DNA of 64,000 bases from NCBI RefSeq assembly GCF_019931195.1, contig NZ_JAIOUO010000006.1, positions 310,001-374,000 on the forward strand. Direction: 5' to 3'. Below, in pieces: positions 29,560 to 46,605 of the stretch; within the stretch, counting starts at the first letter, position 1; each line of letters starts with the position of its first letter. Under the pieces are notes generated by a model. The model searched no databases. It was not told where the DNA came from and was given only the letters and a program-made list of their open reading frames with translations. A program made the translations under genes and the position numbers. This stretch comes from Marinobacter sp. F4216 (GTDB lineage: Bacteria; Pseudomonadota; Gammaproteobacteria; Pseudomonadales; Oleiphilaceae).

Positions 29560-29814
29560 TCAGGCGAGCGAGATACGATAACGAATAACCCCGGCATCTT
29601 CCTCGCGGATCCACTCTATCCGGTGGCCGGTGAGCTCGCACAAGGCCTGTAAGTCCTTTCGGCCACTGGGATCGTCGGCGAGAAACTCAACCTGGGTGCC
29701 CCGGGGAAGATCCTGAGTGCGCTTCTTGAAGCGCAGGATGGGAAGGGGGCACACCAGACCCACCGCATCGATCTGGTGTACCGCGGATTGATCAGTCAAG
29801 TCGAACACTCGCAC
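29560..29814 (-). CDS. TusA-family sulfur carrier in the formate dehydrogenase operon
   Basis: An 84-residue TusA/SirA-fold protein with the active-site motif VCPLPIL (Cys22-Pro-x-Pro). The family takes up persulfide sulfur on that Cys and hands it on. The likely start is GTG 29814, which overlaps the end of the 41-residue membrane peptide gene by 23 bp. The ribosome binding site is weak, so a nearby downstream start is possible. It is the last gene of the fdh run. FdhD, encoded 14 kb away in the same super-locus, needs sulfur to sulfurate the FDH cofactor. A dedicated sulfur-relay role is a natural inference, not shown. Confidence 0.8.
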   Translation of the reverse strand: MRVFDLTDQSAVHQIDAVGLVCPLPILRFKKRTQDLPRGTQVEFLADDPSGRKDLQALCELTGHRIEWIREEDAGVIRYRISLA

Positions 29815-29917
29815 TGCTGGTTTGCTCGGCTACGGACCAGCCGAACTGGTTCAGTACCATGGGTGCTGCAAAGGCGATCACCAGGGCAGCGACAAATGCG
29901 GAAAACATAACTTTCAC
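29792..29917 (-). CDS. 41-residue single-helix membrane peptide coupled to fdhC
   Basis: Starts at GTG 29917, overlapping the fdhC stop by GTGA, with a strong GGGGG site 8 bases upstream. It reads V-K-V-M-F-S-A-F-V-A-A-L-V-I-A-F-A-A-P-M followed by a polar tail ending in RLD. One membrane helix fills the first half. The tight coupling, good ribosome binding site and position between fdhC and the TusA gene argue that it is real. I do not recognise a family. It may be a small accessory or stabilising subunit of the membrane-bound FDH, like other one-helix subunits of respiratory enzymes. Confidence 0.65.
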   Translation of the reverse strand: MKVMFSAFVAALVIAFAAPMVLNQFGWSVAEQTSSASVRLD

Positions 29918-31086
29918 GATGAATTCCCCCTGTCCTGTTTGGATTCCACCTCGGCCACCCACAAGTCGTGGTGCTGGCGGGCCCATTCCCGGTCCACCTG
30001 GCCGGTGCCCATGGCATCGAACGCACCCTCCATGCCAACCGAGCCGATGTAGATGTGGGCAATAATAGCCACCATCATGGCGAACGCGACAATCGAGTGC
30101 CAGATATTGGCGTATTGCATCTCCTCATGCGGGGCCAGTACGGTGGGCAAATCCGTTCCGAAGATGCTGTTGATGACGTTGAAGGTCTTGGCGAACATCG
30201 GCATCTCGAACGGGAACAACATGGAAAGACCTGACAAGGAGACAGACAGGCCTAGTAGCATCACGGTCCAGAAGATAATCTTCTGTCCGGCATTAAACTT
30301 CCTCGCCGACGGGTGGGACTTGGTAAAGATTCCCCCACCGGCTTTCAGCCACTGCCAGTCCAGCTTGCTGGGGATGTTGTGCACCACCCACATGCAGAAG
30401 GTCATCACCAGGCCCAGCATGAAGGCCCAGGCAATGTTGTTGTGCAGCCATTTGGAGCCGTTCGCCAGCGGGGCGAAGGCCTCTTTGCCAATGACCGGAA
30501 TCAGGAAGCTGCGCCCCATGAGGGTGATCAGTCCTGTGATCGCCAGTGCGATGAACGAGCCTGCCAGTAGCCAGTGACCGAATCGTTCGATCGCCTTGAA
30601 TCGCTCGACGGTGGTGCCGGCTGGGCCACCGTCGATCATGATTTTGCCACGCACAAAGTAGAAAATGATCAGCAGCGCAATAACGGCCAGGAGTGCGCCG
30701 CCGCCATAGCTGATCAACGGTCCCTCACGCAGCTTGTACCAGGGCATGCCGGCGTCCTGAATCAGAACGCTGTTGGCGGGTCCGGGTGACTGAATGGAGG
30801 GATCGATCTTGTTATAGCGGATAGAGCGCCAGATGTCGGCGTCAGAGCGACCGCCCAGCGTACCGAGCGATTCGCTGATCGGCGCCGCACTGTCAGGGTT
30901 TCCCAGATTTTCAGAGCGGAAGGACTCGTCAATTTTAAGCTGTTCCTGACGAGCCATAATGTCTTCAAGGGTTTGCGCGCCGCCGGTCGAGGAGCGGTCA
31001 ACCGAAGCGGACTCCTGAGCCAGCGCAGGGGGACAGATCAGTGTCGTCAGTAACAGAATGACGGCACCCAGCAGTTTTGAATTCAT
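29914..31086 (-). CDS. fdhC: Formate dehydrogenase cytochrome b subunit FdhC
   Basis: A 390-residue protein. A signal peptide (VILLLTTLICPPALA) and about 110 mainly polar residues precede four or more membrane helices of the FdnI/FdoI cytochrome b type. Haem-ligating His residues are likely in ERFGHWLLAG, SKWLHNNIAW, VVHNIP and AFAMMVAIIAHIYIG. It anchors FdhAB to the outer face of the inner membrane and passes electrons to quinone. The long N-terminal extension is normal for the FDH3-type gamma subunit found in Shewanella-like operons. It is followed by a coupled 41-residue peptide gene. Confidence 0.92.
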   Translation of the reverse strand: MNSKLLGAVILLLTTLICPPALAQESASVDRSSTGGAQTLEDIMARQEQLKIDESFRSENLGNPDSAAPISESLGTLGGRSDADIWRSIRYNKIDPSIQSPGPANSVLIQDAGMPWYKLREGPLISYGGGALLAVIALLIIFYFVRGKIMIDGGPAGTTVERFKAIERFGHWLLAGSFIALAITGLITLMGRSFLIPVIGKEAFAPLANGSKWLHNNIAWAFMLGLVMTFCMWVVHNIPSKLDWQWLKAGGGIFTKSHPSARKFNAGQKIIFWTVMLLGLSVSLSGLSMLFPFEMPMFAKTFNVINSIFGTDLPTVLAPHEEMQYANIWHSIVAFAMMVAIIAHIYIGSVGMEGAFDAMGTGQVDREWARQHHDLWVAEVESKQDRGNSS

Positions 31087-31175
31087 GAAAGCACTCCAGC
31101 GGAATCAACAAGAAGACTTCGTTGCCTCGATGAATTCCGGGACCCCCTGGAGGGTCCCGGAACGCTCAGGCCTGC

Positions 31176-31784
31176 TTATGCACCCTTCTTCTCGTAAGCT
31201 GTGCCCCATCCCCAAGCGCCGGAACCGAAGCCCCGGTTTACGACACGCTGGCGATAGATGTCCGCTACCTCGTTGCCGTCTCCGGCCAGCAGTGCTTTGG
31301 TCGAGCACATCTCGGCGCAGAGTGGCAGCTTGCCCTCGGCAATACGGTTGCGTCCGTACTTGGAGAACTCTGCGTCAGAGTTGTCCTCTTCGGGGCCCCC
31401 GGCACAGAACGTGCATTTGTCCATCTTACCCCGGCTGCCAAAGTTCCCCGCCTGGGGGAACTGAGGAGCGCCGAACGGGCAGGCATAGAAGCAATACCCG
31501 CAGCCAATGCACAGATCCTTGGAGTGCAACACCACCCCGTCTTCGGTTTGGTAGAAGCAATCCACCGGGCAAACGGCCATACAGGGCGCGTCTGAACAGT
31601 GCATGCAGGCTACCGAGATCGAACGCTCGCCAGGTTTACCATCCTCGATGGTGACGACGCGTCGACGGTTGATGCCCCAGGGGACCTCGTTCTCGTTTTT
31701 ACAGGCCGTGACGCACGCATTGCATTCGATGCAGCGTTCGGCATCGCACAGGAATTTCGCTCGTGCTTGTCCTTCAAGTGCCAT
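31176..31784 (-). CDS. fdhB: Formate dehydrogenase iron-sulfur subunit FdhB
   Basis: A 202-residue ferredoxin-like subunit with four [4Fe-4S] clusters: CIECNACVTACKNENEVPWG, CMHCSDAPCMAVCPVDCFY, CIGCGYCFYACPFGAPQFP and the KCTFC / CAEMCSTKALL set. It is the FDH3-type beta subunit, shorter than E. coli FdnH and lacking its C-terminal membrane helix. It carries electrons from the catalytic FdhA to FdhC. It has no signal of its own, so it is probably co-exported with FdhA by the Tat system. Gap to fdhA is 14 bp. Confidence 0.93.
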   Translation of the reverse strand: MALEGQARAKFLCDAERCIECNACVTACKNENEVPWGINRRRVVTIEDGKPGERSISVACMHCSDAPCMAVCPVDCFYQTEDGVVLHSKDLCIGCGYCFYACPFGAPQFPQAGNFGSRGKMDKCTFCAGGPEEDNSDAEFSKYGRNRIAEGKLPLCAEMCSTKALLAGDGNEVADIYRQRVVNRGFGSGAWGWGTAYEKKGA

Positions 31785-31798
31785 GGTTTACCCCTCCA

Positions 31799-34684
31799 TT
31801 ATGCCGGCGCGATCGAACACAGGGTGGCCTTGGTCTCTTGCATCTGCGTGACCGAGTCATACCCGTATGTTTGAACGGTGTTAGTGGATTCACCCAGAAC
31901 AATGGGATCAGCGCCCTCGGGATATTTCTCCCTCAGGTCCTTGCCTTCCAGGTGCCCGCCGAAGTGGAATGGCATGAAGGCAACGCCTTCGCCAACCCGC
32001 TCGGTCACCATGGCCTTGACCTTGATGCGCGCGCCCTCAGGGCCGGACACCCAGACGTCGTTGCCGTCCCGAATGTTCAGGTTGTTCGCATCCCGCGGGT
32101 TCACCTCGATGAACATCTCCTGCTGCAACTCGGCCAGCCACGGGTTTGAACGGGTCTCATCACCACCACCTTCGTACTCAACCAGACGGCCGGACGTCAG
32201 AATGATGGGGTATTCCTTGCTGAAGTCCTTCTTCTGAATGGACTCGTACATGGTCGGTACGCGCCAGAAGGTTTTGTCCTCGTAGGTCGGGTAATCCTCA
32301 ACCAGATCCCGGCGCGAGGTGTACAGGGGTTCACGGTGAATGGGGACCGGATCCGGGAAGTTCCAGACCACGGCGCGCGCCTTGGCGTTACCGAAGGGCG
32401 CACATTCGTGCTTGATGGCCACCCGCTGGATACCGCCCGAAAGATCGGTCTTCCAGTTGGTTTCCGGCCCAGCCACCGCTTCAATGGCTGAGCGCTCCTC
32501 GTCCGTCAGGTCGCCATCCCAGCCCAGATCCATCAGCATCTGCATGGTAAATTCCGGGTAGCCGTCCTTGATCTCGGAATTCTTCGAGTAAACACCTTCG
32601 GCCAGCAGGTTCTCGCCGTCACGCTCGACACCAAACCGGGCCCGGAAGGTGAGACCACCCTCGGATACCGGCATCGACATATCGTAGAGATTCGGCGTAC
32701 CCGGGTGATTCATTTCCGGAGTGCCCCAGCAAGGCCATGGCATACCATAGACATCACCATCGCAGGGACCGCCAGCGGCTCGCAGGGTGGTCTTGTCGAA
32801 GTGATGTTGGTACTTCATGTGCTTCTGCAGGCGCTCGGGCGACTGACCGGTGTAGCCGATGGTCCACATGCCCCGGTTGAATTCCCGGGTGATGTCCTCA
32901 ATCGACGGTTCGTCACCCTCAATGGCAATGTTCCGGAACATGCGATCGGTGAAGCCGAACTTGTCCGCGAACAGCTTCATGATCTCGTGGTCAACCTTCG
33001 AGTCGAACAGCGGATCAATCACCTTCTCACGCCACTGTAGCGAGCGGTTGGAGGCAGTGACCGAACCGTAGGTCTCGAACTGGGTGGTTGTTGGTAGCAG
33101 ATAAGCGCCGTCTTTGCGGTCATGCAACACCGCGGATACGGTCGGGAAGGGGTCCACAACGACCAGCAGGTCGAGTTTTTCCATGGCCTCCTTCATTTCC
33201 AGCATCCGTGTCTGGGAGTTGGGCGCATGGCCCCACAGCACCATGGCCCGGGTGTTATCGGGCTGCTCCAGGTTTTCCTTGGCTTCCAGAACCCCATCGA
33301 TCCAGCGGGAAACCGGAATGCCTTTCTCGTTCATCATGGGTTTGGACTTGCCGCCCCGGTCGAGTGTGGCGAAGCGACCTTTCAGCCAATCCAGGTCTTC
33401 TTCCCAGACCCGTGCCCAGTGCGCCCAGGAACCGGCGGCCAGACCGTAGTAGCCGGGCAGGGTATCGGCCAGAACGCCAAGGTCGGTTGCGCCCTGCACG
33501 TTGTCGTGGCCACGGAAGATGTTGGTGCCTCCGCCGGTAACGCCCATGTTACCCAGTGCCAACTGCAGGATGCAGTAGGCCCGGGTGTTGTTGTTGCCGT
33601 TGGTGTGCTGGGTACCCCCCATGCACCAGATGACCGTGCCCGGGCGGTTGTTGGCCAGGGTGCGGGCAACACGCTCAAGCTGCGCTCCCGGGGCTCCGGT
33701 AACCCGCTCTACTTCTTCAGGATTCCAGCGCTTCACTTCTTCCCGGATGTCGTCCATGCCCCACACACGGGTGCGGATGAACTCTTTGTCTTCCCATCCG
33801 TTCTCGAAGATGTGCCAGAGAATGCCCCAGACCAGCGCGACGTCACTGCCCGGCCGGAAACGCACAAACTCATCCGCATGGGCGGCGGTGCGGGTAAAGC
33901 GCGGATCGCAGACGATCAGCGGCGCATTGTTTTCTTCCTTGGCTTTCAGGATATGCAGCAACGACACCGGGTGTGCTTCCGCAGGGTTACCCCCGATCAG
34001 GAAGATTGCCTTCGACTTGTGGATGTCGTTGTAGGAGTTGGTCATGGCCCCGTAGCCCCAGGTGTTGGCTACGCCGGCGACCGTGGTTGAGTGGCAGATG
34101 CGGGCCTGGTGATCTACGTTGTTGGTGCCCCAGTAGGCGGCGAACTTGCGGTAGAGGTAGGCTTGTTCGTTGTTGAACTTGGCGCTGCCCAGCCAGTAGA
34201 CCGAATCAGGGCCGCTCTCCTCGCGGATTTGCAGCATCTTGTCGCCGATCTCGTTGATCGCCTCGTCCCAGGAAATCTTCTGCCATTCCCCGTTGACCAT
34301 TTTCATCGGGCTCTTCAGGCGACGATCCCCATGAGCGTGCTCCCGTACTGAAGCACCTTTTGCACAATGGGCCCCCAGATTAAACGGGCTGTCCCAGCCG
34401 GGCTCCTGTCCGGTCCAGACGCCATTTTGAACCTCGGCTTCGACCGTGCAGCCAACCGAACAGTGAGTACATACCGATTTCCTGACTTCGGTTTTGCCTC
34501 CGGAATCCGATGGCGTAGCAGCCTCAACGCGTTTGCTCGTCAGTGACAAAGCGGCCAAACCACCCACGGTGACGCCTGAGGCCGCCAGAAATCCCCGACG
34601 GTCCATCGTCTTTGCCGCGAGGGATGAAAGTAAAGATCCTGCACGGGGGCCTTTCGCTACCCCGTTGGTCTTCTTCCGTAACAT
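31799..34684 (-). CDS. fdhA: Periplasmic formate dehydrogenase catalytic subunit FdhA
   Basis: A 961-residue molybdopterin oxidoreductase. Start ATG 34684 has AGGA about 8 bases upstream. A twin-arginine signal (MDRRGFLAAS, Arg29-Arg30) sits behind a 26-residue basic extension. The N-terminal [4Fe-4S] cluster is C72-x2-C75-x3-C79-x27-C107. The metal ligand is Cys197 in ICHSTTV, with the FDH-conserved His198; it is Cys and not selenocysteine, as the codon is TGC. Two bis-MGD-binding regions are complete. It oxidises formate to carbon dioxide. With TupABC in the same super-locus, tungsten is the likely metal (inference); molybdenum is not excluded. Confidence 0.94.
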   Translation of the reverse strand: MLRKKTNGVAKGPRAGSLLSSLAAKTMDRRGFLAASGVTVGGLAALSLTSKRVEAATPSDSGGKTEVRKSVCTHCSVGCTVEAEVQNGVWTGQEPGWDSPFNLGAHCAKGASVREHAHGDRRLKSPMKMVNGEWQKISWDEAINEIGDKMLQIREESGPDSVYWLGSAKFNNEQAYLYRKFAAYWGTNNVDHQARICHSTTVAGVANTWGYGAMTNSYNDIHKSKAIFLIGGNPAEAHPVSLLHILKAKEENNAPLIVCDPRFTRTAAHADEFVRFRPGSDVALVWGILWHIFENGWEDKEFIRTRVWGMDDIREEVKRWNPEEVERVTGAPGAQLERVARTLANNRPGTVIWCMGGTQHTNGNNNTRAYCILQLALGNMGVTGGGTNIFRGHDNVQGATDLGVLADTLPGYYGLAAGSWAHWARVWEEDLDWLKGRFATLDRGGKSKPMMNEKGIPVSRWIDGVLEAKENLEQPDNTRAMVLWGHAPNSQTRMLEMKEAMEKLDLLVVVDPFPTVSAVLHDRKDGAYLLPTTTQFETYGSVTASNRSLQWREKVIDPLFDSKVDHEIMKLFADKFGFTDRMFRNIAIEGDEPSIEDITREFNRGMWTIGYTGQSPERLQKHMKYQHHFDKTTLRAAGGPCDGDVYGMPWPCWGTPEMNHPGTPNLYDMSMPVSEGGLTFRARFGVERDGENLLAEGVYSKNSEIKDGYPEFTMQMLMDLGWDGDLTDEERSAIEAVAGPETNWKTDLSGGIQRVAIKHECAPFGNAKARAVVWNFPDPVPIHREPLYTSRRDLVEDYPTYEDKTFWRVPTMYESIQKKDFSKEYPIILTSGRLVEYEGGGDETRSNPWLAELQQEMFIEVNPRDANNLNIRDGNDVWVSGPEGARIKVKAMVTERVGEGVAFMPFHFGGHLEGKDLREKYPEGADPIVLGESTNTVQTYGYDSVTQMQETKATLCSIAPA

Positions 34685-34769
34685 GTCTCATTCCTCTCTC
34701 GTTATTCTCGTTTTTCTGGAGGTGTGACCATTCAAGGGCCTTTCGCAACCTTGAATGATTCACGCTTCC

Positions 34770-34958
34770 TTAAAAGCGAGCCGATTCGAAATATTTACGT
34801 GTGTGTTCAGTGTCACGTAAGCCACGGCTTTTCGGGGCGTCGTTGACGACCTGGGCGGCTGCGTTTGGTGCGACGGCCATGGCAACGGCAGCCGGAGCTG
34901 CGGATGCGGCCATCAGCAAGAAACGGCGACGACTGTTCTCACCTTGTTGTTTGTCCAT
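34770..34958 (-). CDS. FdhX: small Tat-signal protein of the formate dehydrogenase operon
   Basis: A 62-residue protein with a twin-arginine signal (SRRRFLLMAASAAPAAVAMA), then about 30 polar residues ending RKYFESARF. GGAGG precedes the start at ideal spacing. The same small protein sits just upstream of fdhA in Shewanella-type FDH operons and is treated as a formate dehydrogenase accessory protein or small subunit. Its function is not established. It lies 85 bp before fdhA and 41 bp after the chaperone gene. Confidence 0.85.
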   Translation of the reverse strand: MDKQQGENSRRRFLLMAASAAPAAVAMAVAPNAAAQVVNDAPKSRGLRDTEHTRKYFESARF

Positions 34959-34999
34959 CGGTTACCTCCACCTGGTTTAAGGGATTGGTTCGCTCCCGG

Positions 35000-35638
35000 T
35001 CATTGCATTGCAAAGGCGCCAGCCTCCACTTCCATGAACGCCTTCCCCAGCGAACCGACCGGGGCATAGAAGACGGAAGCCTTGGCGTTCTCTAAATCGG
35101 TAAAAAACAACGCTGCCCACTTGGCCAGGTGGGCGTCATAAAAGGCTTTCTGTGAGGGTAAGTCACTGTCGCACAGGTACTCACCGGTAATGATGCCCGC
35201 CATGATTTCGCACAGCGTGCTGATATGGTCTTCAGGTTCTTTGACTCCGCTGCTCGACTTGATGCCCCGGGTCATCAGATCGGTCCGCAAATTTGCAAGG
35301 GGTTTTTCGTTCAAAAAGCCGGTCAGGTAGTAGCTGGCGTAGGGCAGAAGTTCGCCACGACCGACTCCGACAAACAGGCTGTTGTATTCCCGTTCGACAT
35401 CACCGGGTTCGGTGCGTTCCGCAAGCACCGCCAGATTTTTGAGGGCAGATCCCAAAGGCGTGTCATCACCACGCAGGAAGGCCAAGCCTTGCAGCAGGTC
35501 AGCCGACGGTGGGCCATCGAGCAGGGAACTGAGTAACTGGTACATCTGGGCACGTGCGCGATCTTCCTCACTGATCGAGCGAGGGCACTGAGCTTCAGCC
35601 GTGTTGGTCAAAGTTACATCCTTTGAAATCGTGTTCAT
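35000..35638 (-). CDS. TorD/DmsD-like redox enzyme maturation chaperone (FdhT-like)
   Basis: A 212-residue, all-alpha cytosolic protein of the TorD family. It shows the typical segments YQLLSSLLDGPPS, EREYNSLFVGVGRGELLPYASYYLTGFLNEKPLA and HISTLCEIMAGIITGE, followed by FYDAHLAKWAALFFTDLENA. Chaperones of this class bind the Tat signal of FdhA and hold it until the cofactor is inserted. Its gene is directly upstream of fdhX-fdhA, matching the FdhT position in related operons. It is expected to serve FdhA, and possibly FdhX. Confidence 0.87.
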   Translation of the reverse strand: MNTISKDVTLTNTAEAQCPRSISEEDRARAQMYQLLSSLLDGPPSADLLQGLAFLRGDDTPLGSALKNLAVLAERTEPGDVEREYNSLFVGVGRGELLPYASYYLTGFLNEKPLANLRTDLMTRGIKSSSGVKEPEDHISTLCEIMAGIITGEYLCDSDLPSQKAFYDAHLAKWAALFFTDLENAKASVFYAPVGSLGKAFMEVEAGAFAMQ

Positions 35639-35706
35639 GTTTTAAGCATTGGTGATACTTGTATAGACCGGACCTGAGGTTGGCGCAACTATGTCGGCAA
35701 ATGCGA

Positions 35707-36354
35707 CTAATCGAAACGCATCCGCGGACGGTAGCGCAGGGTGGACTGCGCCTCGTTTTCAGATGCGTCCTCTGAGTCGTAGGGTTGCGGATCGATCAGC
35801 TGCACCATGGCCGGTTCAGGCTCTGACTTTGGTTCCGGTTTTTTAGGGAGAGGTTCAGTGGGGCTCACCCGCGAAACCTGATCGGCCGACTCGGAGACGT
35901 CACTCGGTTGATCATGTAGGACGCTGGCCGGCTCATCGGCGGGTTTGTCTCTCCTTGCGGATTTATCGAAGTAACCCTGGCCCACCTTGTAGAGGGTTTT
36001 AAATCCGCTGGTTACCGCAGCGGCGTTGGTGTAGTCCTCATCGTAGTCATTCAGTCCGTCCAGAACCGCCAGTACCGGATTGGAGCGCCAGAGCGAGCGA
36101 AGCGCCCTGCGGCGGAGGAATTCCGGAATTTCCTTGCGCATGAAACCGGTAATGTCGGTACCCAGTTCAATGGCATCCGGGTCCGGCAGGTCGTACTTGG
36201 CCAACAGCTCACGCTCGGACAGTGACTCATTAACAGCGAGCTCTTGTTCTTCGTGGGAGGGTTGGAATTCATCGGCTGCAGCGGGGGGAAGTTCCGCATC
36301 CTGACGAGCTTCGGTTTTCTTCCGCGACCAGCGCTCAAAACGTGACTCGGTCAT
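35707..36354 (-). CDS. DUF3306 protein of the formate dehydrogenase operon
   Basis: A 215-residue, highly charged protein starting MTESRFERWSRKKTEARQ, the typical opening of DUF3306. Residues 90-130 (LRSLWRSNPVLAVLDGLNDYDEDYT) are the conserved core; the remainder is low-complexity and rich in Pro, Glu and Ser. Its start overlaps the DUF3305 stop by one base (TGATG), so the two are probably translated together. The family tracks with FDH operons and is of unknown function. No membrane helix or metal motif is seen. Confidence 0.82.
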   Translation of the reverse strand: MTESRFERWSRKKTEARQDAELPPAAADEFQPSHEEQELAVNESLSERELLAKYDLPDPDAIELGTDITGFMRKEIPEFLRRRALRSLWRSNPVLAVLDGLNDYDEDYTNAAAVTSGFKTLYKVGQGYFDKSARRDKPADEPASVLHDQPSDVSESADQVSRVSPTEPLPKKPEPKSEPEPAMVQLIDPQPYDSEDASENEAQSTLRYRPRMRFD

Positions 36355-36932: not shown

Positions 36933-37027
36933 GGCAACTCTCTTTTCTTTTAGAAGCTAGCAGAGCTGAAAGAAATATCCAGAGGATCTCTTACAAACCC
37001 CGGCTGATTACTCGACAGGCGTAAAAA

Positions 37028-37075: not shown

Positions 37076-37076
37076 G

Positions 37077-39056: not shown

Positions 39057-39074
39057 CTCTTATCAGGACATACC

Positions 39075-39920: not shown

Positions 39921-40621
39921 TCGAATCGCCCCAGTTTCCGCCGCTGTTCTCGGGTGAAGCGGTTACCAGACACACAGACCCTTTTGACAAGGCTGTAAGC
40001 CGGGCCATTGCCGGCGTGGATTCAGGCACAATTTTCTACTCTGAATCCAGTGACACTCTGCGGGCAGCACTGGTGTTGGCGCCGGAAACGCCCCTGGAAG
40101 AGGCCATTCAGGCCGTCTATGTGGCCCAGATCGGGCTGGCCGAGAGTCTGGGGGCTCTGGCGCCGCCCGAGGTGCCTGTGTATTTTCAGTGGCCCGATCG
40201 TATCAAGGTCAACGGAGCCGTGTGCGGTGGCGTTCGATTTGCCACGGATGTGTCAGATCCCCAGGCCCACCCTAACTGGCTGGTGATTGGCATTGAGGTG
40301 CCGTTTTTGCCTTCGGGTGATGAGCCGGGAGAAAACCCGAACCAAACCTGTCTGTACTTCGAGGGTTGTGGGGAAATCACTCCCATGGCGTTGCTGGAAA
40401 GCTGGTCCAAGCACACGTTACTGTGGCTGACCTATTACATGGACAGTGGTTTCCAGCGGGTCCATGACGAGTGGCGGCCAAGATGTGACACCCTGGGTAA
40501 AATGATTGAGCAGCCACGGCCCGGTGTCTTTGTTGGTCTGGACGAAAAAGGCCGGATGCTGTTGCGTGAGGGTGTTATGACCGAAACCGTTAGCCTGATT
40601 GAATTCGCGGAGCGTGCATGA
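39917..40621 (+). CDS. Biotin/lipoate protein ligase-like protein lacking the usual catalytic lysine
   Basis: A 234-residue protein with the BPL/LplA fold. WPDRIKVNGAVCGGVRF (from residue 92) aligns with the BirA motif WPNDLYLQDRKLAGIL. The lysine that activates the carboxylate in BirA aligns with Val102, and Asn-Asp are changed to Asp-Arg. PNWLVIGIEVPF and PMALLESWSKHTLLWLTYYMDSGF are further family blocks, with a small C-terminal DUF4444-like region. Coupled by ATGA to both neighbours (Mrp and DUF6505). No lipoyl or biotinyl acceptor domain is encoded here. It could be a degenerate ligase used as a binding protein, or use other chemistry. Confidence 0.75.
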   Translation: MIESPQFPPLFSGEAVTRHTDPFDKAVSRAIAGVDSGTIFYSESSDTLRAALVLAPETPLEEAIQAVYVAQIGLAESLGALAPPEVPVYFQWPDRIKVNGAVCGGVRFATDVSDPQAHPNWLVIGIEVPFLPSGDEPGENPNQTCLYFEGCGEITPMALLESWSKHTLLWLTYYMDSGFQRVHDEWRPRCDTLGKMIEQPRPGVFVGLDEKGRMLLREGVMTETVSLIEFAERA

Positions 40622-41094
40622 AACTGGCCCGAACCCTGAGACTCGATATATCCGATGAGAACGTTTTTGAATTGCCTGCGGCGAGCGGTGAGTGGGCGAT
40701 TTCCGGTGGGTTTGAGTTCTCCAACTGGACCGAAGCGGACCTGATGGGCAAGGCCCGTCAGGCGTTCAGCAACGGTTGGTACAGCATCGAATCCGGCGGG
40801 CGCGCCAGTTTTGTTGGCGTCTGCCACATCACCGACGCAGAACTGGAGCAGTTGCGTCAGACCCTGGCGAAGACCTTTGTCGAGATCTATGGCGCGCCGG
40901 ACATCGATACGGCCTACCCCGTTGCCTGCGAAGAAATCGACCAGATGCGCAGCATGTGTGAAGACTTTGAAGACAACACCCTGCTTATGGTGAGCCGCGA
41001 GCTGACCGAACTGGGTGTGGAAGAGACCTACCGCTCCCGGGCGCCGCAGGATGCCTCGCTGGAAGCCTTCGCGGTGCATGGCAGTGTCGAGTGA
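40618..41094 (+). CDS. DUF6505-family protein of the FDH accessory operon
   Basis: A 158-residue soluble, acidic protein starting MKLARTLRLDISDENVFELP. Visible features are EWAISGGFEFSNW, GKARQAFSNGWYSIESGGRASFVGV and a C-terminal EEIDQMRSMCEDFEDNTLLMVSRELTE, split here into recognisable pieces. I recall it as DUF6505, a family of unknown function that travels with the ligase-like and Mrp genes. It overlaps the previous gene by ATGA and ends immediately before the converging moeA stop, with no spacer at all. No motif for catalysis was found. Confidence 0.75.
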   Translation: MKLARTLRLDISDENVFELPAASGEWAISGGFEFSNWTEADLMGKARQAFSNGWYSIESGGRASFVGVCHITDAELEQLRQTLAKTFVEIYGAPDIDTAYPVACEEIDQMRSMCEDFEDNTLLMVSRELTELGVEETYRSRAPQDASLEAFAVHGSVE

Positions 41095-42342
41095 CTAGAG
41101 GCCGAAACTGCCGTAGGGAATAAATCGAACCGGAGTGCCTGGTTCAATCTGCTGGGCGCTTCCGTCGAGTTCCACCAACCCCTCGGACCACGCCAGACCG
41201 GTGACCCGGCCGGAACCTTCTGAACCAAAAACTTCCACCTGACCATCGCGAACCCGGGCGCGCAACATCTCGCTGCGCCCCGGCTTCTTGTTCTTGGAAA
41301 AGTTAGCAGGCAGGACATAACCCTGGGGTTCGAACCACTCGCCCCCGGCCAGCAATGCCATTGCTGGCGCGCCAAAGCGCAGCGCACACACCCAGGCGGC
41401 CACCGGGTTTCCGGGCAGACCCACCACAGGCGTGCCCTGGAACATGGCCAGTGCCAGAGGGCGGCCGGGTTTGATCGCAATACGCCAGTTGCTGATCTCG
41501 CCATGGGCTTTCAGGGTTTTCGAAACGTGGTCTTCATCGCCGGCCGAAATCCCGCCGCTGGTCAGGATCAGGTCACACTGATCGGCGCCTCGCTCAAGTG
41601 CGGCTTTGACCTCGTCGGCCCGGTCCGGCACATGTCCCAGGTCCACCACCTGATAGCCAAGCTGCGCCACCAGTGCGCTGAGCATCGGGTGATTGGCGTC
41701 GTAGATCTGCCAGTCCGAGACCGCCGAGCCCACCGGCTTTACCTCGTCCCCGGTGGACAGAATGCCCACGCGCAACGGCTGGTAGACGTCGACCGACTCA
41801 ATACCCACGCTGGCAAGCACTGAAATCCTGGTTGGCGTGATGCGCGTCCCCGAGGTGAGAATCCGGTCCTGTGCCTGGATGTCTTCTCCGGCCTGGCGAC
41901 GGTTGGCACCGGCTTTGAGGGTGCCTTTCAGATGAAGCTGCCCGTCGATCACGTCGCAGTCTTCGTCCAGCACCACTGTGTCGGTGCCGTCCGGAATCAC
42001 CGCGCCGGTCAGGATCCGGATGGCGTGGCCTGCGGGTACCCGGCCTGTATACGGTGCGCCGGCGGCACTGCGGCCATCAACCAGGGGCAGCGTGCAGGGT
42101 GCCTCGGTAATCGGGCCGGCAAACGCATAGCCATCGACGGCGGAATTGCTGCTGGGAGGATGAGCGCGGGGGGCAATCACATCGCTGGCCAGTATCCGGC
42201 CATTGGCCCGGGACAGCGGAACGGCATGCTCCACACCCACTACCGGATGGAGCCGGGAACGCAACCGCTCGAGCGCCTCCTCGACAGGCGTCCAGTTAAC
42301 GCCGGGGGGCAGGGCAAAGCAGTCGTTGCGCAGTGGCTTCAT
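41095..42342 (-). CDS. moeA: Molybdopterin molybdenumtransferase MoeA
   Basis: A 415-residue protein. The ATG at 42342 follows GGA and lies 2 bases after the mobB stop; the in-frame ATGs at 42357 and 42366 would lie inside mobB. Sequence blocks include ANGRILASDV, SSNSAVDGYAF, PVFSTGDE-like (ILSTGDEVKPVG), ILTSGGISAGDEDHV, AIKPGRPLALA and GLPGNPVAAWVC, standard for MoeA. It inserts molybdate or tungstate into adenylated molybdopterin. It is the last gene of the tup-fdhD-mob-moe run. It may be the FDH-specific copy; no moaABCDE genes are in the window. Confidence 0.94.
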   Translation of the reverse strand: MKPLRNDCFALPPGVNWTPVEEALERLRSRLHPVVGVEHAVPLSRANGRILASDVIAPRAHPPSSNSAVDGYAFAGPITEAPCTLPLVDGRSAAGAPYTGRVPAGHAIRILTGAVIPDGTDTVVLDEDCDVIDGQLHLKGTLKAGANRRQAGEDIQAQDRILTSGTRITPTRISVLASVGIESVDVYQPLRVGILSTGDEVKPVGSAVSDWQIYDANHPMLSALVAQLGYQVVDLGHVPDRADEVKAALERGADQCDLILTSGGISAGDEDHVSKTLKAHGEISNWRIAIKPGRPLALAMFQGTPVVGLPGNPVAAWVCALRFGAPAMALLAGGEWFEPQGYVLPANFSKNKKPGRSEMLRARVRDGQVEVFGSEGSGRVTGLAWSEGLVELDGSAQQIEPGTPVRFIPYGSFGL

Positions 42343-42343
42343 G

Positions 42344-42844
42344 TTATTTCCGTTCATGGGTATCAAGGCCCAGAATAAAGTCGGCTATTCCGGGCACGTC
42401 GTTCAGGTCAAAAGCGGGCCCTGCGAAGTCGGACGGGTAGTCCGTCGCCACCGCAATAATACTCGGGTCGGTCTGGTGCAGTGGGCCACGGGCACAGTCT
42501 TGGCGGTGGACTTCAATCTTGGGGTGCGCGTGGGCTTTAAACCCTTCTATCACAACCCAGTCGCAAGGGCCGAGCCGGGCCAGCAGTTCTTCCGGTGTTG
42601 GCTCTTCGGTATCACGCAGCTCATGCATGATGGCGAAGCGTTGACCTCCCACCAGAATGACCTCGCGGGCGCCCGCCTCACGGTGCCGGTAGCTGTCGGT
42701 GCCGGGCTGGTCCACATCCACTGAATGGTGCGCGTGCTTGATCGAGTTGACCGTTAAACCCCGGTCAGACATCTCCCGGATCAGTGCGGTGGCCAGTGTC
42801 GTCTTACCGCAGTTTTTCCAGCCTACAATGCCTATCACCTTCAC
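42344..42844 (-). CDS. mobB: Molybdopterin-guanine dinucleotide biosynthesis protein MobB
   Basis: A 166-residue GTP-binding protein. The start is GTG 42844, overlapping the mobA stop by GTGA. Walker A is GIVGWKNCGKTTL at the N-terminus. IKHAHHSVDVDQPGTDSYRHREAGA is present in family-typical form, and CDWVVIEGFK follows. MobB binds GTP and assists MobA in adding GMP to molybdopterin. Its stop is 2 bases from the moeA start. Confidence 0.92.
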   Translation of the reverse strand: MKVIGIVGWKNCGKTTLATALIREMSDRGLTVNSIKHAHHSVDVDQPGTDSYRHREAGAREVILVGGQRFAIMHELRDTEEPTPEELLARLGPCDWVVIEGFKAHAHPKIEVHRQDCARGPLHQTDPSIIAVATDYPSDFAGPAFDLNDVPGIADFILGLDTHERK

Positions 42845-43428
42845 GTCAGGTTCTGCTCCGCCCAGGCCAGGTCTTCCGGTGTGTTGATATTGAAAAAGTC
42901 GTCTTCGCCGAACACCACCAGCGATTCGCCCTGGGCCTGGGTCCATTGCCGGATTTTACGAACGCCACCGTTCAGGGCAGCACGCAAATCGTCCCGCAGA
43001 GCCACCTGCCAGCGGCCGAAGGTGGGCTGGGGCAGGCGGCCCCGTTCCGGGTCCGGCGTTGCTGCCAGCACCACAGGGGTGTCTTTTTCGGCCAGACGTT
43101 GCGCCAGGTCCAGGGGAAACGACGGAGTATCTGCGGCCACACTGATCAGCCACTCATGCCCCTGCTCGGCCGCCCAGTCCATGCCGGCCAGGACGCCCGC
43201 CAGAGGGCCGGCGTAGCCGGTTACGGAGTCCGCGACAACGGGCAAGCCAAGATCCTCGAAGCGGCTCAGGTCACCATTGGCGTTCAGTACAACGGCATCG
43301 ACCTGCGGCGTGATCCGATCAATGACACGCTGGATCAGGGTCTGGTCGCCCAGCATCAATCGTCCTTTATCACCCCCGCCCATCCTGCGTGCCTGGCCAC
43401 CGGCCAGGATAACTGCGCAATCCGTCAT
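42841..43428 (-). CDS. mobA: Molybdenum cofactor guanylyltransferase MobA
   Basis: A 195-residue nucleotidyltransferase. The signature LAGGQARRMGGGDKG at residues 9-23 is the GTP-binding loop; LGDQTLIQRVIDR and AADTPSFP are further MobA landmarks. It converts the cofactor to bis-MGD, the form used by FdhA. It is coupled to mobB by a 4 bp overlap and lies 10 bp after fdhD. Confidence 0.93.
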   Translation of the reverse strand: MTDCAVILAGGQARRMGGGDKGRLMLGDQTLIQRVIDRITPQVDAVVLNANGDLSRFEDLGLPVVADSVTGYAGPLAGVLAGMDWAAEQGHEWLISVAADTPSFPLDLAQRLAEKDTPVVLAATPDPERGRLPQPTFGRWQVALRDDLRAALNGGVRKIRQWTQAQGESLVVFGEDDFFNINTPEDLAWAEQNLT

Positions 43429-43437
43429 GTTCGGTCC

Positions 43438-44310
43438 CTATCCATCGTCCCGTGCGCCCTTGCGACGCATTTTTTTGTCGTCATCCGGTACCTGCGACAG
43501 GTCCTGATCAAACACCAGGCGGTGCTGGCCGCTGAGGCAGGTGAATTTCTTGCCACGCATCCGGCCGATCAGGGTCAGGCCAACCTGTTGGGCGATATCC
43601 ACACCCCAGGCGGTAAAGCCGGACCGGCTGATGAGTGTGGGAATCCCCATCAGGGCGGTCTTGATCACCATCTCGGAGGTTAGCCTGCCAGTGGTGTAAA
43701 GCACCTTATCCGCCGCCGGGATGTCGTTCAAATGCATCCAGCCGGCAATCTTGTCGACCGCGTTGTGGCGCCCGACGTCTTCCATATACGCCAGAACCTG
43801 CTGTCCGTGGCACAGGGCAGTGCCATGAATGGCACCGGTTTCCATATACAGGCTGGGGGTATGGTTAATCTTGAAGGAGAGGTCGTAGAAGGTGCTGGTG
43901 TGCACCGGTGTATCTGGCAGGGACAGCCCGTCTAGCCCGGCCATCATATCGCCAAACACCGTACCGACGGCGCAGCCCGAGGTGCGGGTTTTTTTCTGCA
44001 GTTTGTCCTCGACGTCTGTAGTTCCGGCGGTGCGTACCACCGCGACTTCCAGCTCTTCGTCGAAATCGATTCTGGTGACCTGATCGGTGTCTTTCAGCAT
44101 GCCCTGGTTCAGCAGAAATCCGAGGGCCAGGTATTCGGGGTAATCGCCAATGGTCATGGCTGTCACGATTTCCTGGCTGTTCAGGTAGATGGTCAGGGGG
44201 CGTTCTTCGATCACGCTGATGGACTTGGCCTGGCCGGTTTCATCAATCCCGGTAACCTGGCGGGACAGCCGGGGATCGGAGGGATTGGGGAGCAGGGATG
44301 AAATCGTCAT
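43438..44310 (-). CDS. fdhD: Formate dehydrogenase sulfurtransferase FdhD
   Basis: A 290-residue protein with the FdhD core: IEERPLTIYLNSQEIVTAM, RTSGCAVGTVFGD and the C-terminal VGRHNAVDKIAGW and RSGFTAWGVDIAQQVGLTLIG. FdhD takes sulfur from a desulfurase and transfers it to the bis-MGD cofactor of FDH. In E. coli FdhD the sulfur-carrying Cys121 is part of a CxxC motif. Here the same loop has only one Cys (Cys113 in SGCAVG). The gene is between tupA and mobA, linking metal uptake to cofactor sulfuration. Confidence 0.93.
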   Translation of the reverse strand: MTISSLLPNPSDPRLSRQVTGIDETGQAKSISVIEERPLTIYLNSQEIVTAMTIGDYPEYLALGFLLNQGMLKDTDQVTRIDFDEELEVAVVRTAGTTDVEDKLQKKTRTSGCAVGTVFGDMMAGLDGLSLPDTPVHTSTFYDLSFKINHTPSLYMETGAIHGTALCHGQQVLAYMEDVGRHNAVDKIAGWMHLNDIPAADKVLYTTGRLTSEMVIKTALMGIPTLISRSGFTAWGVDIAQQVGLTLIGRMRGKKFTCLSGQHRLVFDQDLSQVPDDDKKMRRKGARDDG

Positions 44311-44378
44311 TATTGTTGTAATCCTTTCAGGAACATCACTTCTTTAAGTCTAGATGACCGGTGCCAGCGGCCAATGCC

Positions 44379-45176
44379 TCAGTTGGCATTCGGGAAAAAT
44401 AACTGTTTGCCATCAACTTCATAGGCGGCAATGGCGGCTTGTCCGGTTGCGGACAACAACCACTCGGTAAAGACCCTGGCGGCATCCTGTTTCACTTTCG
44501 GACACTTGTCCGCGCTTACCGGGATGATACCGTATTGGTTGAACAGGGCGGGGTCTCCTTCAAACAGAATGACCGCATCCTGCTTGTTGGCGAACGTGAT
44601 CCAGGTGGCCCTGTCGGTCAGTACGTAGGCTGTCAGGCCCACTCCGGTATTCAGGGTGGCACCCATGCCGCTGCCCGTTTCCAGATACCACTGGCCGGAC
44701 CCGGCATCCGGGTCGATACTGGCTTTCTCCCACAATGCGCGTTCTTTCTTGTGGGTGCCAGAATCATCGCCGCGAGAGGCAAACTTGGCGCCGGCCGCTT
44801 TGATTCGGCCAAGGGCCTCAACCGCATTGCTGGCGCTGGCTATACCGGCAGGATCGGACCCCGGGCCGACGATGACAAAGTCGTTGTACATCAGGTCCCG
44901 GCGATATTCCCCGTAGCCTTGTGCGACGAACTCCTCCTCGGCGGACTTGGCGTGCACCAACAGTACGTCACCATCACAGCGCATGGCGTTCTTGATCGCC
45001 TGGCCTGTACCTACTGCAACCACATTTGCCTGAATACCGGTATCTTTTTTCAGCAATGGCAGCAGATAGTCATACAGGCCGCTGTTTTTGGTAGATGTGG
45101 TGGACTGGACGATGAGGGTGTCTGCCACTGTGTACGTGCTGAATATCAATGTAAGGCAGGCGAGCATCTGTTTCAT
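44379..45176 (-). CDS. tupA: Tungstate-binding protein TupA
   Basis: A 265-residue periplasmic protein with a signal peptide (MKQMLACLTLIFSTYTVAD). The mature start LIVQSTTSTKNSGLYDYLLP contains the TTTS-type oxyanion motif (here TTST), and FASRGDDSGTHKKER is the second binding block. Both are typical of TupA, which is selective for tungstate over molybdate, and differ from ModA. It is last of tupB-tupC-tupA, 30 bp after tupC and 68 bp before fdhD. It argues that the neighbouring FDH is a tungsten enzyme. Confidence 0.9.
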   Translation of the reverse strand: MKQMLACLTLIFSTYTVADTLIVQSTTSTKNSGLYDYLLPLLKKDTGIQANVVAVGTGQAIKNAMRCDGDVLLVHAKSAEEEFVAQGYGEYRRDLMYNDFVIVGPGSDPAGIASASNAVEALGRIKAAGAKFASRGDDSGTHKKERALWEKASIDPDAGSGQWYLETGSGMGATLNTGVGLTAYVLTDRATWITFANKQDAVILFEGDPALFNQYGIIPVSADKCPKVKQDAARVFTEWLLSATGQAAIAAYEVDGKQLFFPNAN

Positions 45177-45206
45177 GGTGGTGCTCCTTATAGTTATTGT
45201 TTATCC

Positions 45207-45917
45207 CTAACACGGAATTTCACCGGCCAGGTACGCTTTGGCCACCGGGGTTCTGGGCGCGGCAAAAAACGCATCCGCCGGGCTTTGCTCGGCGACCTGC
45301 CCATTCGATATAAACACGATTTCATCGGCCAGTCGGCGTGCCTGTCCCTGATCATGACTGACCAGAATGACCTTGGTTCCCCGGGCGATCTGGGTTTTGA
45401 GCAGGGATTCGATCAGCAGCACGGACGCGGGGTCCAGACTGGCGGTCGCTTCGTCGAGCAGCAGCAGGGCGGGCTTGCCCAGCAGCGCCCGCGCCAGTGA
45501 AAGCCGCTGCTGCTCACCACCGGACAGCATCCGGGCCGGTTGGTCGGCCAGGTGCGCCAGCAGGACCGATTCCAGTGCCTGCATCAGTCGTTTGGGTTCA
45601 GTCCTGGCCATCTCGGGTGCCGCAAAGGCCAGGTTCTGCAGCACGGTTCTGCGCAGCAGGACGGGTTGCTGAAAGACCATGGCCTGCTGGTTGCGGCTGT
45701 CTGTGACTTTAAGCTGGCCAAGGGTAATTTGCCCGTGGTCCGGTTGGATCAGCCCATGCAGGCAGCGCAGCAGCAGGCTCTTACCTGCACCGTTGGGCCC
45801 CATGATGACGGTGATGCCGGGTTCCTGGATTGTCAGGTCCACGCCATCCAGCACCGCTCTGTCTCGCTTGTTCAGGCGCAGGTCTGAGATGCGAATGGGT
45901 AACAACGAATCAGGCAT
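45207..45917 (-). CDS. tupC: Tungstate ABC transporter ATPase TupC
   Basis: A 236-residue ATPase. ATG 45917 gives an 8 bp overlap with tupB; an ATG at 45947 would overlap much further. Walker A is GPNGAGKS (residues 40-47), the signature LSGGEQQRLSLARAL, and Walker B LLLLDEAT with the D-loop SLD. The short length lacks a molbindin domain, as is usual for TupC. It powers TupB. Confidence 0.88.
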   Translation of the reverse strand: MPDSLLPIRISDLRLNKRDRAVLDGVDLTIQEPGITVIMGPNGAGKSLLLRCLHGLIQPDHGQITLGQLKVTDSRNQQAMVFQQPVLLRRTVLQNLAFAAPEMARTEPKRLMQALESVLLAHLADQPARMLSGGEQQRLSLARALLGKPALLLLDEATASLDPASVLLIESLLKTQIARGTKVILVSHDQGQARRLADEIVFISNGQVAEQSPADAFFAAPRTPVAKAYLAGEIPC

Positions 45918-46605
45918 ACTGGCGCTTCTCCGCGTATTCACGAACACCGATCACCAGGGCGTTAACCAGCAGTGACATGGTCAGCAGAACCGCACCCAGG
46001 GCCAGGGCCAGGGTTAGATTGCCCTTCGAGGTTTCCAGGGCGATGGCGGTGGTCATCACACGGGTCAGGTGATCGATGTTACCTCCAACGATAATGACCG
46101 CGCCCACCTCGGCAATGGCCCGGCCGAAGCCAGCCAGAATGCAGGTGGTCAGTGCATAGCGGGCATCCACCAGATAGGCAGCGACCGCACGGCGCCCGGT
46201 TACCCCCATCGAGTAGAAGGTGTCGTGGTATTCCTGATGAAGACTTTCGATCACCTGATTCGACAGGGCCGCGATGATCGGTGTGATCAACACCACCTGC
46301 GCGATAATCATCGCCGTTGGTGTGTACAGCAGACCCATCCAGCCAAGGGGGCCGGAGCGTGACAGCAGCAGGTACACCATCAACCCCACCACAACCGGAG
46401 GCATGCCCATGAGGGCGTTGAGCAAAAGAATGCAGAGCTTGCGTCCCGGAAAGTGGGTGATCGCCAGGTAGGTTCCGAGTGGCAATCCGATAACAGCTGC
46501 AATGGCCAGCGCGACCAGGCTGACCCGGATGGACAGCCAGAGAATCTCGTACAGATCCGCATCCAGCGTGATAATCAGTCGAAAGGCTTCAGCCAAAGCA
46601 TCCAT
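45910..46605 (-). CDS. tupB: Tungstate ABC transporter permease TupB
   Basis: A 231-residue permease. The ATG at 46605 (MDALAEAFRLIITLDADLYEI) is favoured because it matches the usual family N-terminus; a longer form from 46686 would add a basic tail. About five membrane helices are visible. The loop YSMGVTGRRAVAAYLVDARYAL corresponds to the ATPase-contacting EAA region. First gene of the tup-fdhD-mobA-mobB-moeA run; its promoter should lie in the next 300 bases. Confidence 0.87.
   Translation of the reverse strand: MDALAEAFRLIITLDADLYEILWLSIRVSLVALAIAAVIGLPLGTYLAITHFPGRKLCILLLNALMGMPPVVVGLMVYLLLSRSGPLGWMGLLYTPTAMIIAQVVLITPIIAALSNQVIESLHQEYHDTFYSMGVTGRRAVAAYLVDARYALTTCILAGFGRAIAEVGAVIIVGGNIDHLTRVMTTAIALETSKGNLTLALALGAVLLTMSLLVNALVIGVREYAEKRQYA

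Follow-up and report, generated by a model that had tools for sequence, protein, structure and literature searches.

A Marinobacter locus that probably encodes a tungsten formate dehydrogenase of the FDH3 class together with its own assembly line

The window analysed here is a 64,000-nucleotide stretch of Marinobacter sp. F4216 (contig NZ_JAIOUO010000006.1, positions 310,001 to 374,000), and all coordinates below refer to it. Genes were called from its open reading frame (ORF) listing together with Pfam and NCBIfam scans, which placed 20 genes at positions 29,560-46,686, among them those of a formate dehydrogenase (FDH). On the minus strand lie, in order, DUF3305, DUF3306, a TorD/DmsD-like chaperone, FdhX, the FDH subunits FdhA, FdhB and FdhC, a 41-amino-acid (aa) peptide and TusA; the plus strand carries, in order, a 666-aa 4Fe-4S protein, Mrp, a protein of the biotin/lipoate ligase fold (hereafter the ligase-like protein) and DUF6505; and MoeA, MobB, MobA, FdhD, TupA, TupC and TupB are convergent with this plus-strand group. 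We consider it probable that the locus encodes a quinone-linked tungsten FDH of the FDH3 class, exported by the twin-arginine translocation (Tat) pathway, together with its own assembly line. Every gene named in an initial annotation of this DNA was present in the arrangement described there, and the tight overlaps that it had taken as evidence for one functional unit are borne out by the coordinates: base 36,354 is common to DUF3305 and DUF3306 (TGATG), ATGA overlaps join Mrp to the ligase-like gene (39,917-39,920) and the latter to DUF6505 (40,618-40,621), the fdhC stop and the start of the 41-aa peptide share four bases (GTGA, 29,914-29,917), and the convergent ends of DUF6505 (41,094) and MoeA (41,095) meet with zero bases between them.

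The catalytic subunit FdhA (31,799-34,684, minus strand) has a Tat motif near its N-terminus (DRRGFL, in DRRGFLAASG) and, at the active site, a cysteine that replaces selenocysteine (RICHST, in RICHSTTVAGV). FdhB, the iron-sulfur (Fe-S) subunit (31,176-31,784, minus strand), scored above the FDH3 beta equivalog cut-off of NF038355 (347.4 of 240 bits, given here and below as the score obtained and the score required), and FdhC (29,914-31,086, minus strand; TIGR01583, 133.1 of 115.85 bits) is a cytochrome b subunit with an N-terminal extension of about 160 aa. In a search of the PDB, the closest solved homologue of FdhA was 9vap_A (1426.7 bits, residues 24-960) and the closest chain to FdhB was 9vap_B (335.2 bits). 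Passages of PMC13397495 describe 9VAP as the oxygen-tolerant Shewanella oneidensis enzyme SoFdhAB, whose FdhA holds one cluster besides the cysteine-ligated tungsten and whose FdhB holds four. By its sequence features, the window enzyme is an FDH3-type, Tat-exported, cysteine-ligated FDH with a predicted membrane topology. Directly before fdhA lies FdhX (34,770-34,958, minus strand), a 62-aa twin-arginine (NSRRRFL) protein of the formate_TAT family that, like TupA, TupB, TupC, TusA and FdhD, matches its NCBIfam model without reaching the equivalog cut-off (TIGR02811, 38 of 48.45 bits); it is preceded by the TorD/DmsD-like chaperone (35,000-35,638, minus strand; PF02613, 100.5 bits).

The initial annotation had proposed that DUF3305, DUF3306, the 4Fe-4S protein, the ligase-like protein, DUF6505 and the 41-aa peptide form a single dedicated pathway making a tungsten-loaded periplasmic FDH, and had named phylogenetic profiling as a check. 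We profiled the members against FDH3 and TupA in a panel of 219 Pseudomonadota genomes, searched family by family; the profiling covered FDH3 beta (at the model cut-off), DUF3305, DUF3306, the 4Fe-4S protein (a profile of 25 members, E 1e-30), TupA (E 0.001), DUF6505, the ligase-like protein and FdhX. FDH3 beta, DUF3305 and DUF3306 occur in the identical 36 genomes, the latter two always within 30 kb of FDH3 (Fisher p 4e-42, with values over the profiled families running from 4e-42 to 8e-18, relatedness ignored throughout). The 4Fe-4S protein was found in 37 genomes, namely all 36 with FDH3 (35 of them within 30 kb) and one other, G333 in our numbering. Of the 36 genomes, 35 have an FdhX match close to FDH3 beta (a few kb), G260 being without a clear FdhX; at E 0.01 the TIGR02811 model matches 135 of the 219 genomes, and among the matches listed those outside FDH3 genomes reach at most 32.8 bits and look like bare Tat matches. 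DUF6505 is present in 20 genomes, all among the 36, and the locus-type ligase-like protein in 19, all among those 20; neither was found in the 183 panel genomes without FDH3.

TupA matches occur in 44 panel genomes, comprising 36 of 36 with FDH3 and 8 of 183 without it (G182 and G350 by partial matches). Because 17 of the 36 have TupA on a different contig from FDH3 or over 30 kb away from it (G171 and G323 of these at 32-39 kb), its presence with FDH3 is not explained by hitch-hiking alone. DUF3305, DUF3306 and the 4Fe-4S protein were absent from all eight genomes with TupA but without FDH3, and they therefore track FDH3, not tungstate uptake; these proteins serve the FDH3 enzyme rather than tungsten as such. 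The same coupling is seen among closer relatives in the within-family counts (families f147, f93, f156, f165, f175 and f182): FDH3, DUF3305 and TupA occur together in three of nine genomes of f165, four of seven of f93 and two of three of f147, the others having none of them. None of DUF3305, DUF3306, the 4Fe-4S protein, DUF6505 and the ligase-like protein was thus found usually to occur without FDH, and the profiling supports the reading of the locus as a unit. The idea of a single pathway needs amending, however, as the co-occurrence falls into two tiers: DUF3305, DUF3306, the 4Fe-4S protein and FdhX (35/36) go with FDH3 across this and other classes, and DUF6505 (20/36) and the ligase-like protein (19/36) do so in some lineages only.

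The second tier was followed through named loci fetched with DUF6505, for which the best 80 of 290 places were taken; the nearest named relatives of the window DUF6505 are from Marinobacter. Mrp and the ligase-like protein accompany DUF6505 in all 80 as one overlapping cassette. Where enough flanking sequence was available, fdhA was found in 66 of 67 loci (at least 8 kb upstream), the 4Fe-4S protein and DUF3305 in 70 of 72 (at least 4.5 kb upstream), and TupA and FdhD in 51 and 59 of 73, respectively (at least 6 kb downstream). Marinobacter, Litoricola-like and Rhodobacteraceae loci nearly always show the order DUF3306-DUF3305 / 4Fe-4S-Mrp-ligase-DUF6505; in the first two of these groups DUF6505 is followed by MoeA, MobB, MobA and FdhD. 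In a sample of 158 genomes of the class, DUF6505 was found in three, the window genome, G138 and G080; in G138 it stands beside FDH genes, with no Mrp or ligase-like match in that stretch.

Among the first-tier proteins, DUF3305 (36,354-36,932, minus strand, 192 aa) and DUF3306 (35,707-36,354, minus strand, 215 aa; PF11748) are uncharacterised. For DUF3305 there is NF011058, an NCBIfam model of a MobA-DUF3305 fusion. MobA of the window (42,841-43,428, minus strand; TIGR02665, 189.4 of 151.85 bits), a guanylyltransferase, corresponds to the first part of this model (156.3 bits) and window DUF3305 to its last, C-terminal part (78.8 bits), each far below the full-length cut-off of 820, as expected for separate genes; the fusion places DUF3305 next to the guanylylation step. 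An AlphaFold model of DUF3305 reached a predicted local distance difference test score (pLDDT) of 82.0 and a predicted template modelling score (pTM) of 0.69. In the 4Fe-4S protein (37,056-39,056, plus strand), the invariant cysteines fit four classic [4Fe-4S] sites (288-334 and 522-563), and a C-terminal CxxC...CxxC and the N-terminal cysteines 17, 19, 46 and 67 are also kept; these patterns, taken with the linked Mrp, favour a part in providing Fe-S clusters or electrons while the enzyme is assembled. The long form of the protein (at least 650 bits) occurs in 21 genomes, 20 of them with DUF6505. Its first 290 residues matched no recognised domain in a search with a profile of 20 members, and a likeness of this region to HdrA was considered and dropped, since the PDB gave nothing below E 0.22 and Pfam no family for the window member. 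By eye, none of the three proteins has an export signal or membrane stretch. In the 123-bp divergent intergenic region between DUF3305 and the 4Fe-4S gene (36,933-37,055), an alignment of 49 loci showed that blocks common to most others are not fully kept in the window, and it gave nothing of use on a promoter. Separately, G333, which is without DUF3305 or DUF3306, has a 4Fe-4S homologue (175.7 bits) near divergent FdhA/FdhB-like genes (L248, G333:C1:806000-825900), perhaps an older association with FDH.

Within the overlapping cassette, Mrp (39,075-39,920, plus strand, 281 aa; PF10609, 332.6 of 27.1 bits) is an ApbC-type P-loop NTPase and a paralogue of a second Mrp in the same genome (48% identity); against the ApbC/Mrp model NF008669 it scored 316.7 of 348, below the cut-off, and covered only positions 104-350 of 369. 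The ligase-like protein (39,917-40,621, plus strand) belongs to the PF16917 fold family (241.8 of 27 bits) and is homologous to PDB 3bfm (residues 76-302 of the query ORF, E 4.8e-61); its gene starts near the ATG at 39,917, as a 309-aa ORF from 39,692 would overlap Mrp. Ordinary members of this fold carry the signature KWPND...K, whose lysines matter for ligase catalysis. Both lysines are absent from the window protein and from 19 of 19 panel members. None of the 80 named loci has the first, and 77 also lack the second, which L068, L070 and L074 retain. The pair is therefore intact in 0 of 99 ligase-like rows (19 panel and 80 named, sets that share some genomes) compared to 11 of 11 ordinary ligases. 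The panel count of 19 leaves out the PF16917 match of G171 (95.9 bits), an ordinary ligase with both lysines; of the weaker matches, L165-L174 were read and all were ordinary, and the remainder were taken as ordinary by score. The protein, called ligase-like in the initial annotation, does have the ligase fold, but as the signature lysine pair is missing it is probably not a ligase. A conserved catalytic cysteine (NGAxCG) was also considered and set aside, as it is near-invariant in close relatives but missing in several of the 19 panel members (for example G167, G186 and G362).

DUF6505 (40,618-41,094, plus strand, 158 aa) was named by its family match, and its AlphaFold model reached a pLDDT of 82.1 and a pTM of 0.77. 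A further family, DUF6352, lies between DUF6505 and DUF3305 in Sinorhizobium sp. K101 and in loci L232-L236 and was also noted at L259. Among 79 chosen genomes it occurs in 13 of 36 with FDH3 and 0 of 43 others, far from FDH3 in G091, G171, G323 and G341; the window genome is without it.

The remaining genes bear on the metal and the cofactor. The TupA-like binding protein (44,379-45,176, minus strand) matches NF041772 (E 1.4e-62, 211.5 of 400 bits) and is so named because this score is below the cut-off; its specificity for tungstate is putative. It is accompanied by a TupC-like ATP-binding cassette (ABC) ATPase (45,207-45,947, minus strand; NF041774, 115.4 of 400 bits), for which many ABC models score as well or better, and a TupB-like permease (45,910-46,686 as the longest ORF, minus strand; NF038017, 255.1 of 100 bits, and the TupB model NF041773, 173.2 of 320 bits). 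Marinobacter tupABC genes after fdhD are of two types at the same place, with TupA about 50% or about 70-80% identical to that of the window; among loci L006-L085, both types stand in tandem in L026. In G307, of the same genus, a TupA candidate (G307:C1:3342088-3342843) has one in-frame TAG.

Passages of PMC13197769 report that the tungsten enzyme FDH1 of M. extorquens requires moeA1, mobB and fdhD, that moeA1-mobB-tupBCA form a cluster, and that MoeA1 has Arg291 and Ala312 where ordinary MoeAs have Lys and Ser, residues that bias it towards tungsten. MoeA of the window (41,095-42,366, minus strand) has Arg302 and Ala323 (longest-ORF numbering) at both metal-pocket positions, where E. coli K-12 MoeA has Lys and Ser; the positions were mapped indirectly, via the IKPGR motif and E. 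coli Ser303 as given in PMC13197769. The MoeAs of related loci are Arg/Ala in 62 of 63 cases and Arg/Gly in one, and a set taken from clusters linked to FDH or to fdhD-mobA is Arg/Ala in five of five (the window, L258, L259, L260 and L271). Among panel FDH3 loci, Arg/Ala is likewise the pair in L236, in L251 and in one MoeA of L247. For comparison, 11 of 30 listed MoeA rows were taken (ten controls and the FDH-linked H32). The pair occurred in 0 of 11 control MoeAs, and controls that neighbour genes for nitrate reductase, arsenite oxidase or molybdate uptake show different residues at the two positions. MoeA paralogues of other subfamilies were left uncounted (L262b, which did not align, L271b, L271c and L260_+0, the last two being Lys/Ser). 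Window MoeA is predicted to select tungsten. The window genome (G000) has four more molybdopterin oxidoreductase matches besides FdhA, and it presumably therefore handles molybdenum and tungsten side by side. MobB occupies 42,344-42,946 (minus strand) as its longest ORF, which overlaps MobA, so that the true start is probably further in.

FdhD (43,438-44,310, minus strand; PF02634, 249.5 of 27.2 bits; TIGR00129, 138.1 of 140.9 bits) keeps the first cysteine of the E. coli CXXC and has Gly in place of the second, which is also lacking in the FdhD of 11 other loci and of 62 close relatives. According to passages of PMC6239281, the CXXC is not conserved across FdhD proteins and the first cysteine of E. 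coli FdhD stimulates IscS; loss of the second cysteine does not, therefore, exclude membership of the family. The TusA-like sulfur carrier at the end of the fdh operon (29,560-29,814, minus strand, start possibly nearer 29,799) meets PF01206 (58.9 of 28.6 bits) and scores below the cut-off of NF001423 (44 of 78 bits); it could be the sulfur source, and a homologue lies downstream of the 41-aa peptide in all three other genomes of the genus examined. The peptide itself (29,792-29,917, minus strand) has a GTG start and, by eye, a single hydrophobic stretch. Codon position 3 differs most often in all six within-genus pairs, as fits a translated gene. The peptide is real, for homologues of 41-43 aa, also with a single hydrophobic stretch, lie directly 3' of fdhC elsewhere. 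Of 15 further FDH3 loci, six have one (three from the genus and three from family f182, at L249, L276 and L277), and no ORF of this type follows fdhC in the other nine; Sulfitobacter indolifex also has a 41-aa version after fdhC, annotated as a hypothetical protein. To that extent the view of the peptide in the initial annotation is changed. It is likeliest to be a small membrane subunit or a stabiliser of FdhC.

The product of the unit is most likely a tungsten FDH3; tungsten in the enzyme of the present organism is suggested because the nearest solved homologue, 9VAP, is a tungsten enzyme, together with TupA co-occurrence and the MoeA residues. In the pathway that we propose, TupABC would import tungstate, MoeA with MobB would put tungsten into the pterin, and MobA would add guanosine monophosphate to give the tungsten bis-molybdopterin guanine dinucleotide cofactor (W-bis-MGD). 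FdhD, perhaps fed sulfur by TusA, would sulfurate the cofactor and load it into FdhA, held during loading by the TorD-like chaperone. DUF3305 and DUF3306 would act as FDH3-specific hand-over or folding factors, and the 4Fe-4S protein, in this lineage with Mrp, would supply or repair Fe-S clusters or give electrons during maturation. FdhAB would be exported with FdhX as a Tat-bearing partner and would dock on FdhC and on the membrane peptide of 41 aa. An auxiliary pair, found in some lineages, would be made up of DUF6505 and the pseudo-ligase. The steps given to the DUF proteins, the 4Fe-4S protein, Mrp and TusA are those that we infer. Of the view taken in the initial annotation, the dedicated unit is upheld by co-occurrence and the tungsten product appears most likely; that the uncharacterised proteins carry out steps of the cofactor pathway, rather than acting as Fe-S, export or structural factors, is what we would suggest. 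DUF3305, DUF3306, the 4Fe-4S protein, DUF6505 and the ligase-like protein are good candidates for FDH3 assembly machinery, with putative chemistry.

A more specific version, which we put forward tentatively and think somewhat less likely to be right than wrong as a whole, is that DUF3305, DUF3306 and the 4Fe-4S protein form a previously undescribed and obligatory loading machine for FDH3, joined by an ex-ligase/DUF6505 chaperone. DUF3305 would then take W-bis-MGD from MobA, the 4Fe-4S protein with Mrp would build clusters or hold the cofactor in its reduced state up to the sealing and export of FdhAB, and the ex-ligase, its lysine pair lost, would have been recruited with DUF6505, in Marinobacter and in alphaproteobacteria (for example roseobacters and Sinorhizobium), as a chaperone binding cofactor or apoprotein.

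Several observations weigh against a tungsten FDH with a dedicated assembly line. Window TupA falls short of its equivalog cut-off, as do the matches in all 44 panel genomes that have one, and TupA-only genomes occur within the same families (three in f182, one in f156). Single members of the MoeA pair occur in controls (Arg alone in 1 of 11, Ala alone in 3 of 11), and the second MoeA of FDH3 locus L247 is Lys/Ser. MoeA, MobA, MobB and FdhD do not stand beside the set in Rhodobacteraceae loci L072-L085; the contig of a Paracoccaceae metagenome-assembled genome (L079) has Mrp, the ligase-like protein and DUF6505 with no FDH gene within 10 kb, perhaps owing to the assembly or to a locus in two parts; and G080 has DUF6505 without FdhA in a 20-kb stretch, with an FdhC-like match 15 kb away. 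The models of DUF3305 and DUF6505 found no PDB match by Foldseek at E <=0.001 (best VIA-align Z 2.2 and 2.1, respectively), a result that does not prove a new fold. The putative Fe-S role of the 4Fe-4S protein is read from cysteine patterns only, and the metal content of the enzyme is a prediction.

We also weighed whether the uncharacterised proteins are working partners of the enzyme, with the 4Fe-4S protein as an alternative electron acceptor or donor and DUF3305 and DUF3306 as subunits or regulators of formate respiration. The 4Fe-4S protein, with cysteines for four [4Fe-4S] clusters and further sets, is indeed wire-like, passages of PMC4464133 name DUF3305 and DUF3306 as putative membrane proteins, and co-occurrence alone cannot separate a partner from an assembly factor. 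However, FdhA and FdhX have Tat motifs and these three proteins lack, by eye, an export signal or membrane stretch, and so should sit across the membrane from FdhA and FdhX; together with the MobA-DUF3305 fusion model, this makes partnership unlikely in our view. That the enzyme uses molybdenum or is metal-flexible, the tup genes being kept for another reason, would accord with the low TupA scores, the eight genomes with TupA and without FDH3 and the two types of Marinobacter tup genes at the same place. It appears very improbable given TupA in all 36 FDH3 genomes, more than 30 kb off in 17, a nearest structure with cysteine-ligated tungsten (PMC13397495, in the passages cited) and the Arg/Ala pair of window MoeA.

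A different explanation concerns the plus-strand cassette, in which Mrp, the ligase-like protein and DUF6505 would be a separate lipoate- or biotin-linked module that travels with the locus. The cassette does hold together in all 80 DUF6505 loci, once without nearby FDH genes (L079), 16 of the 36 FDH3 genomes are without DUF6505 and 17 without the ligase-like protein, and the second lysine is kept in three of 80 named loci. Yet DUF6505 and the locus-type ligase-like protein occur in 0 of 183 panel genomes without FDH3, both lysines together are found in 0 of 99 rows, and Pfam scans revealed no lipoyl-domain gene in the cassette; we regard a separate module as decidedly unlikely. An FDH3-specific assembly line for a tungsten enzyme is the reading that we prefer.

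Oxygen-tolerant tungsten FDHs are wanted as CO2-reducing catalysts. Passages of PMC13396061 report that E. coli makes another tungsten FDH poorly, the alpha subunit being lost post-translationally, and that general chaperones were of no help; FDH-specific factors are obvious ones to seek. For the FDH3 class, the present analysis provides a short list of DUF3305, DUF3306 and the 4Fe-4S protein, with DUF6505 and the pseudo-ligase in some lineages, and the two-residue MoeA signature makes the choice of metal directly testable. Beyond the unit, an RND efflux pump and HlyD-type partner lie past TusA (25,174-29,432), with nothing to tie them to it, and a thioesterase-like protein, an iron-containing alcohol dehydrogenase and an AraC-type regulator come after tupB (46,926-49,674).

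Compared to known systems, the window enzyme is like Shewanella SoFdhAB (9VAP), the best PDB match for both FdhA and FdhB, in its cysteine ligand, and the locus adds Mrp, the ligase-like protein, DUF6505, a long FdhC, the 41-aa peptide and TusA. In family f153, which we would guess to be Shewanella-like, DUF6505 and the ligase-like protein are missing from all six genomes with FDH3. FDH1 of M. extorquens is a two-subunit, NAD-linked enzyme. Its maturation set, as far as passages of PMC13197769 describe it, likewise has moeA, mobB, tup and fdhD, which the window holds in one locus with the same Arg/Ala pocket; in M. radiotolerans, a related 17-kb stretch (L260) with an NAD-type FDH, mobB and moeA has no annotated DUF3305, DUF3306 or large 4Fe-4S protein in a gene table that is incomplete. 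E. coli Fdh-O, which is exported by Tat, is like the window enzyme a three-subunit respiratory FDH with FdhD. In E. coli, however, fdhE adjoins fdoGHI, and none of the 20 window genes matches FdhE in Pfam and NCBIfam scans; E. coli FdhD has the CXXC whose second cysteine window FdhD lacks. PDB 3bfm, the homologue of the ligase-like protein, is by its own title a biotin protein ligase-like protein of unknown function.

In the open-access literature searched, DUF3305 was found only in PMC4464133 and DUF3306 there and in one unrelated paper, and no mention was found of DUF6505, DUF6352 or DUF4444. Passages of PMC4464133 reported in 2015 that DUF3305 and DUF3306 lie upstream in 60% of dmsD-fdhGHI operons and are possibly regulated with the operon, and a figure legend also lists an fdh Tat protein and a 4Fe-4S protein; tungsten, MoeA type, DUF6505 and the ligase-like protein go unmentioned in these passages. 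A molybdo- or tungsto-enzyme with its own maturation genes is thus already known, and the DUF3305/DUF3306 neighbourhood has been in print since that report (PMC4464133, in the passages cited); the exact FDH3 coupling, the pseudo-ligase and a tungsten-type MoeA in this locus were not found in the open-access papers that the searches returned. Among plasmids, 96 records carry FDH3 beta homologues (E 1e-60), most of them from Pseudosulfitobacter and Sulfitobacter, and in roseobacters the FDH3 cluster is therefore extrachromosomal. Two plasmid clusters are close to that of the window. That of Sinorhizobium sp. K101 differs in an extra DUF6352 and no annotated Mrp in the stretch, that of S. indolifex in an extra DUF6494 between Mrp and the 4Fe-4S gene (L280:4273-4476) and a longer Mrp (1071 bp), and neither lists TusA beside fdhC. 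Like the window, both carry, by their annotation, fdh3B, a TorD family protein, DUF3306, DUF3305, DUF6505, a biotin/lipoate ligase family protein and a 4Fe-4S protein, and the S. indolifex cluster also has tup-like ABC genes, Mrp, a small Tat-motif protein, FdhA, FdhC and the 41-aa protein.

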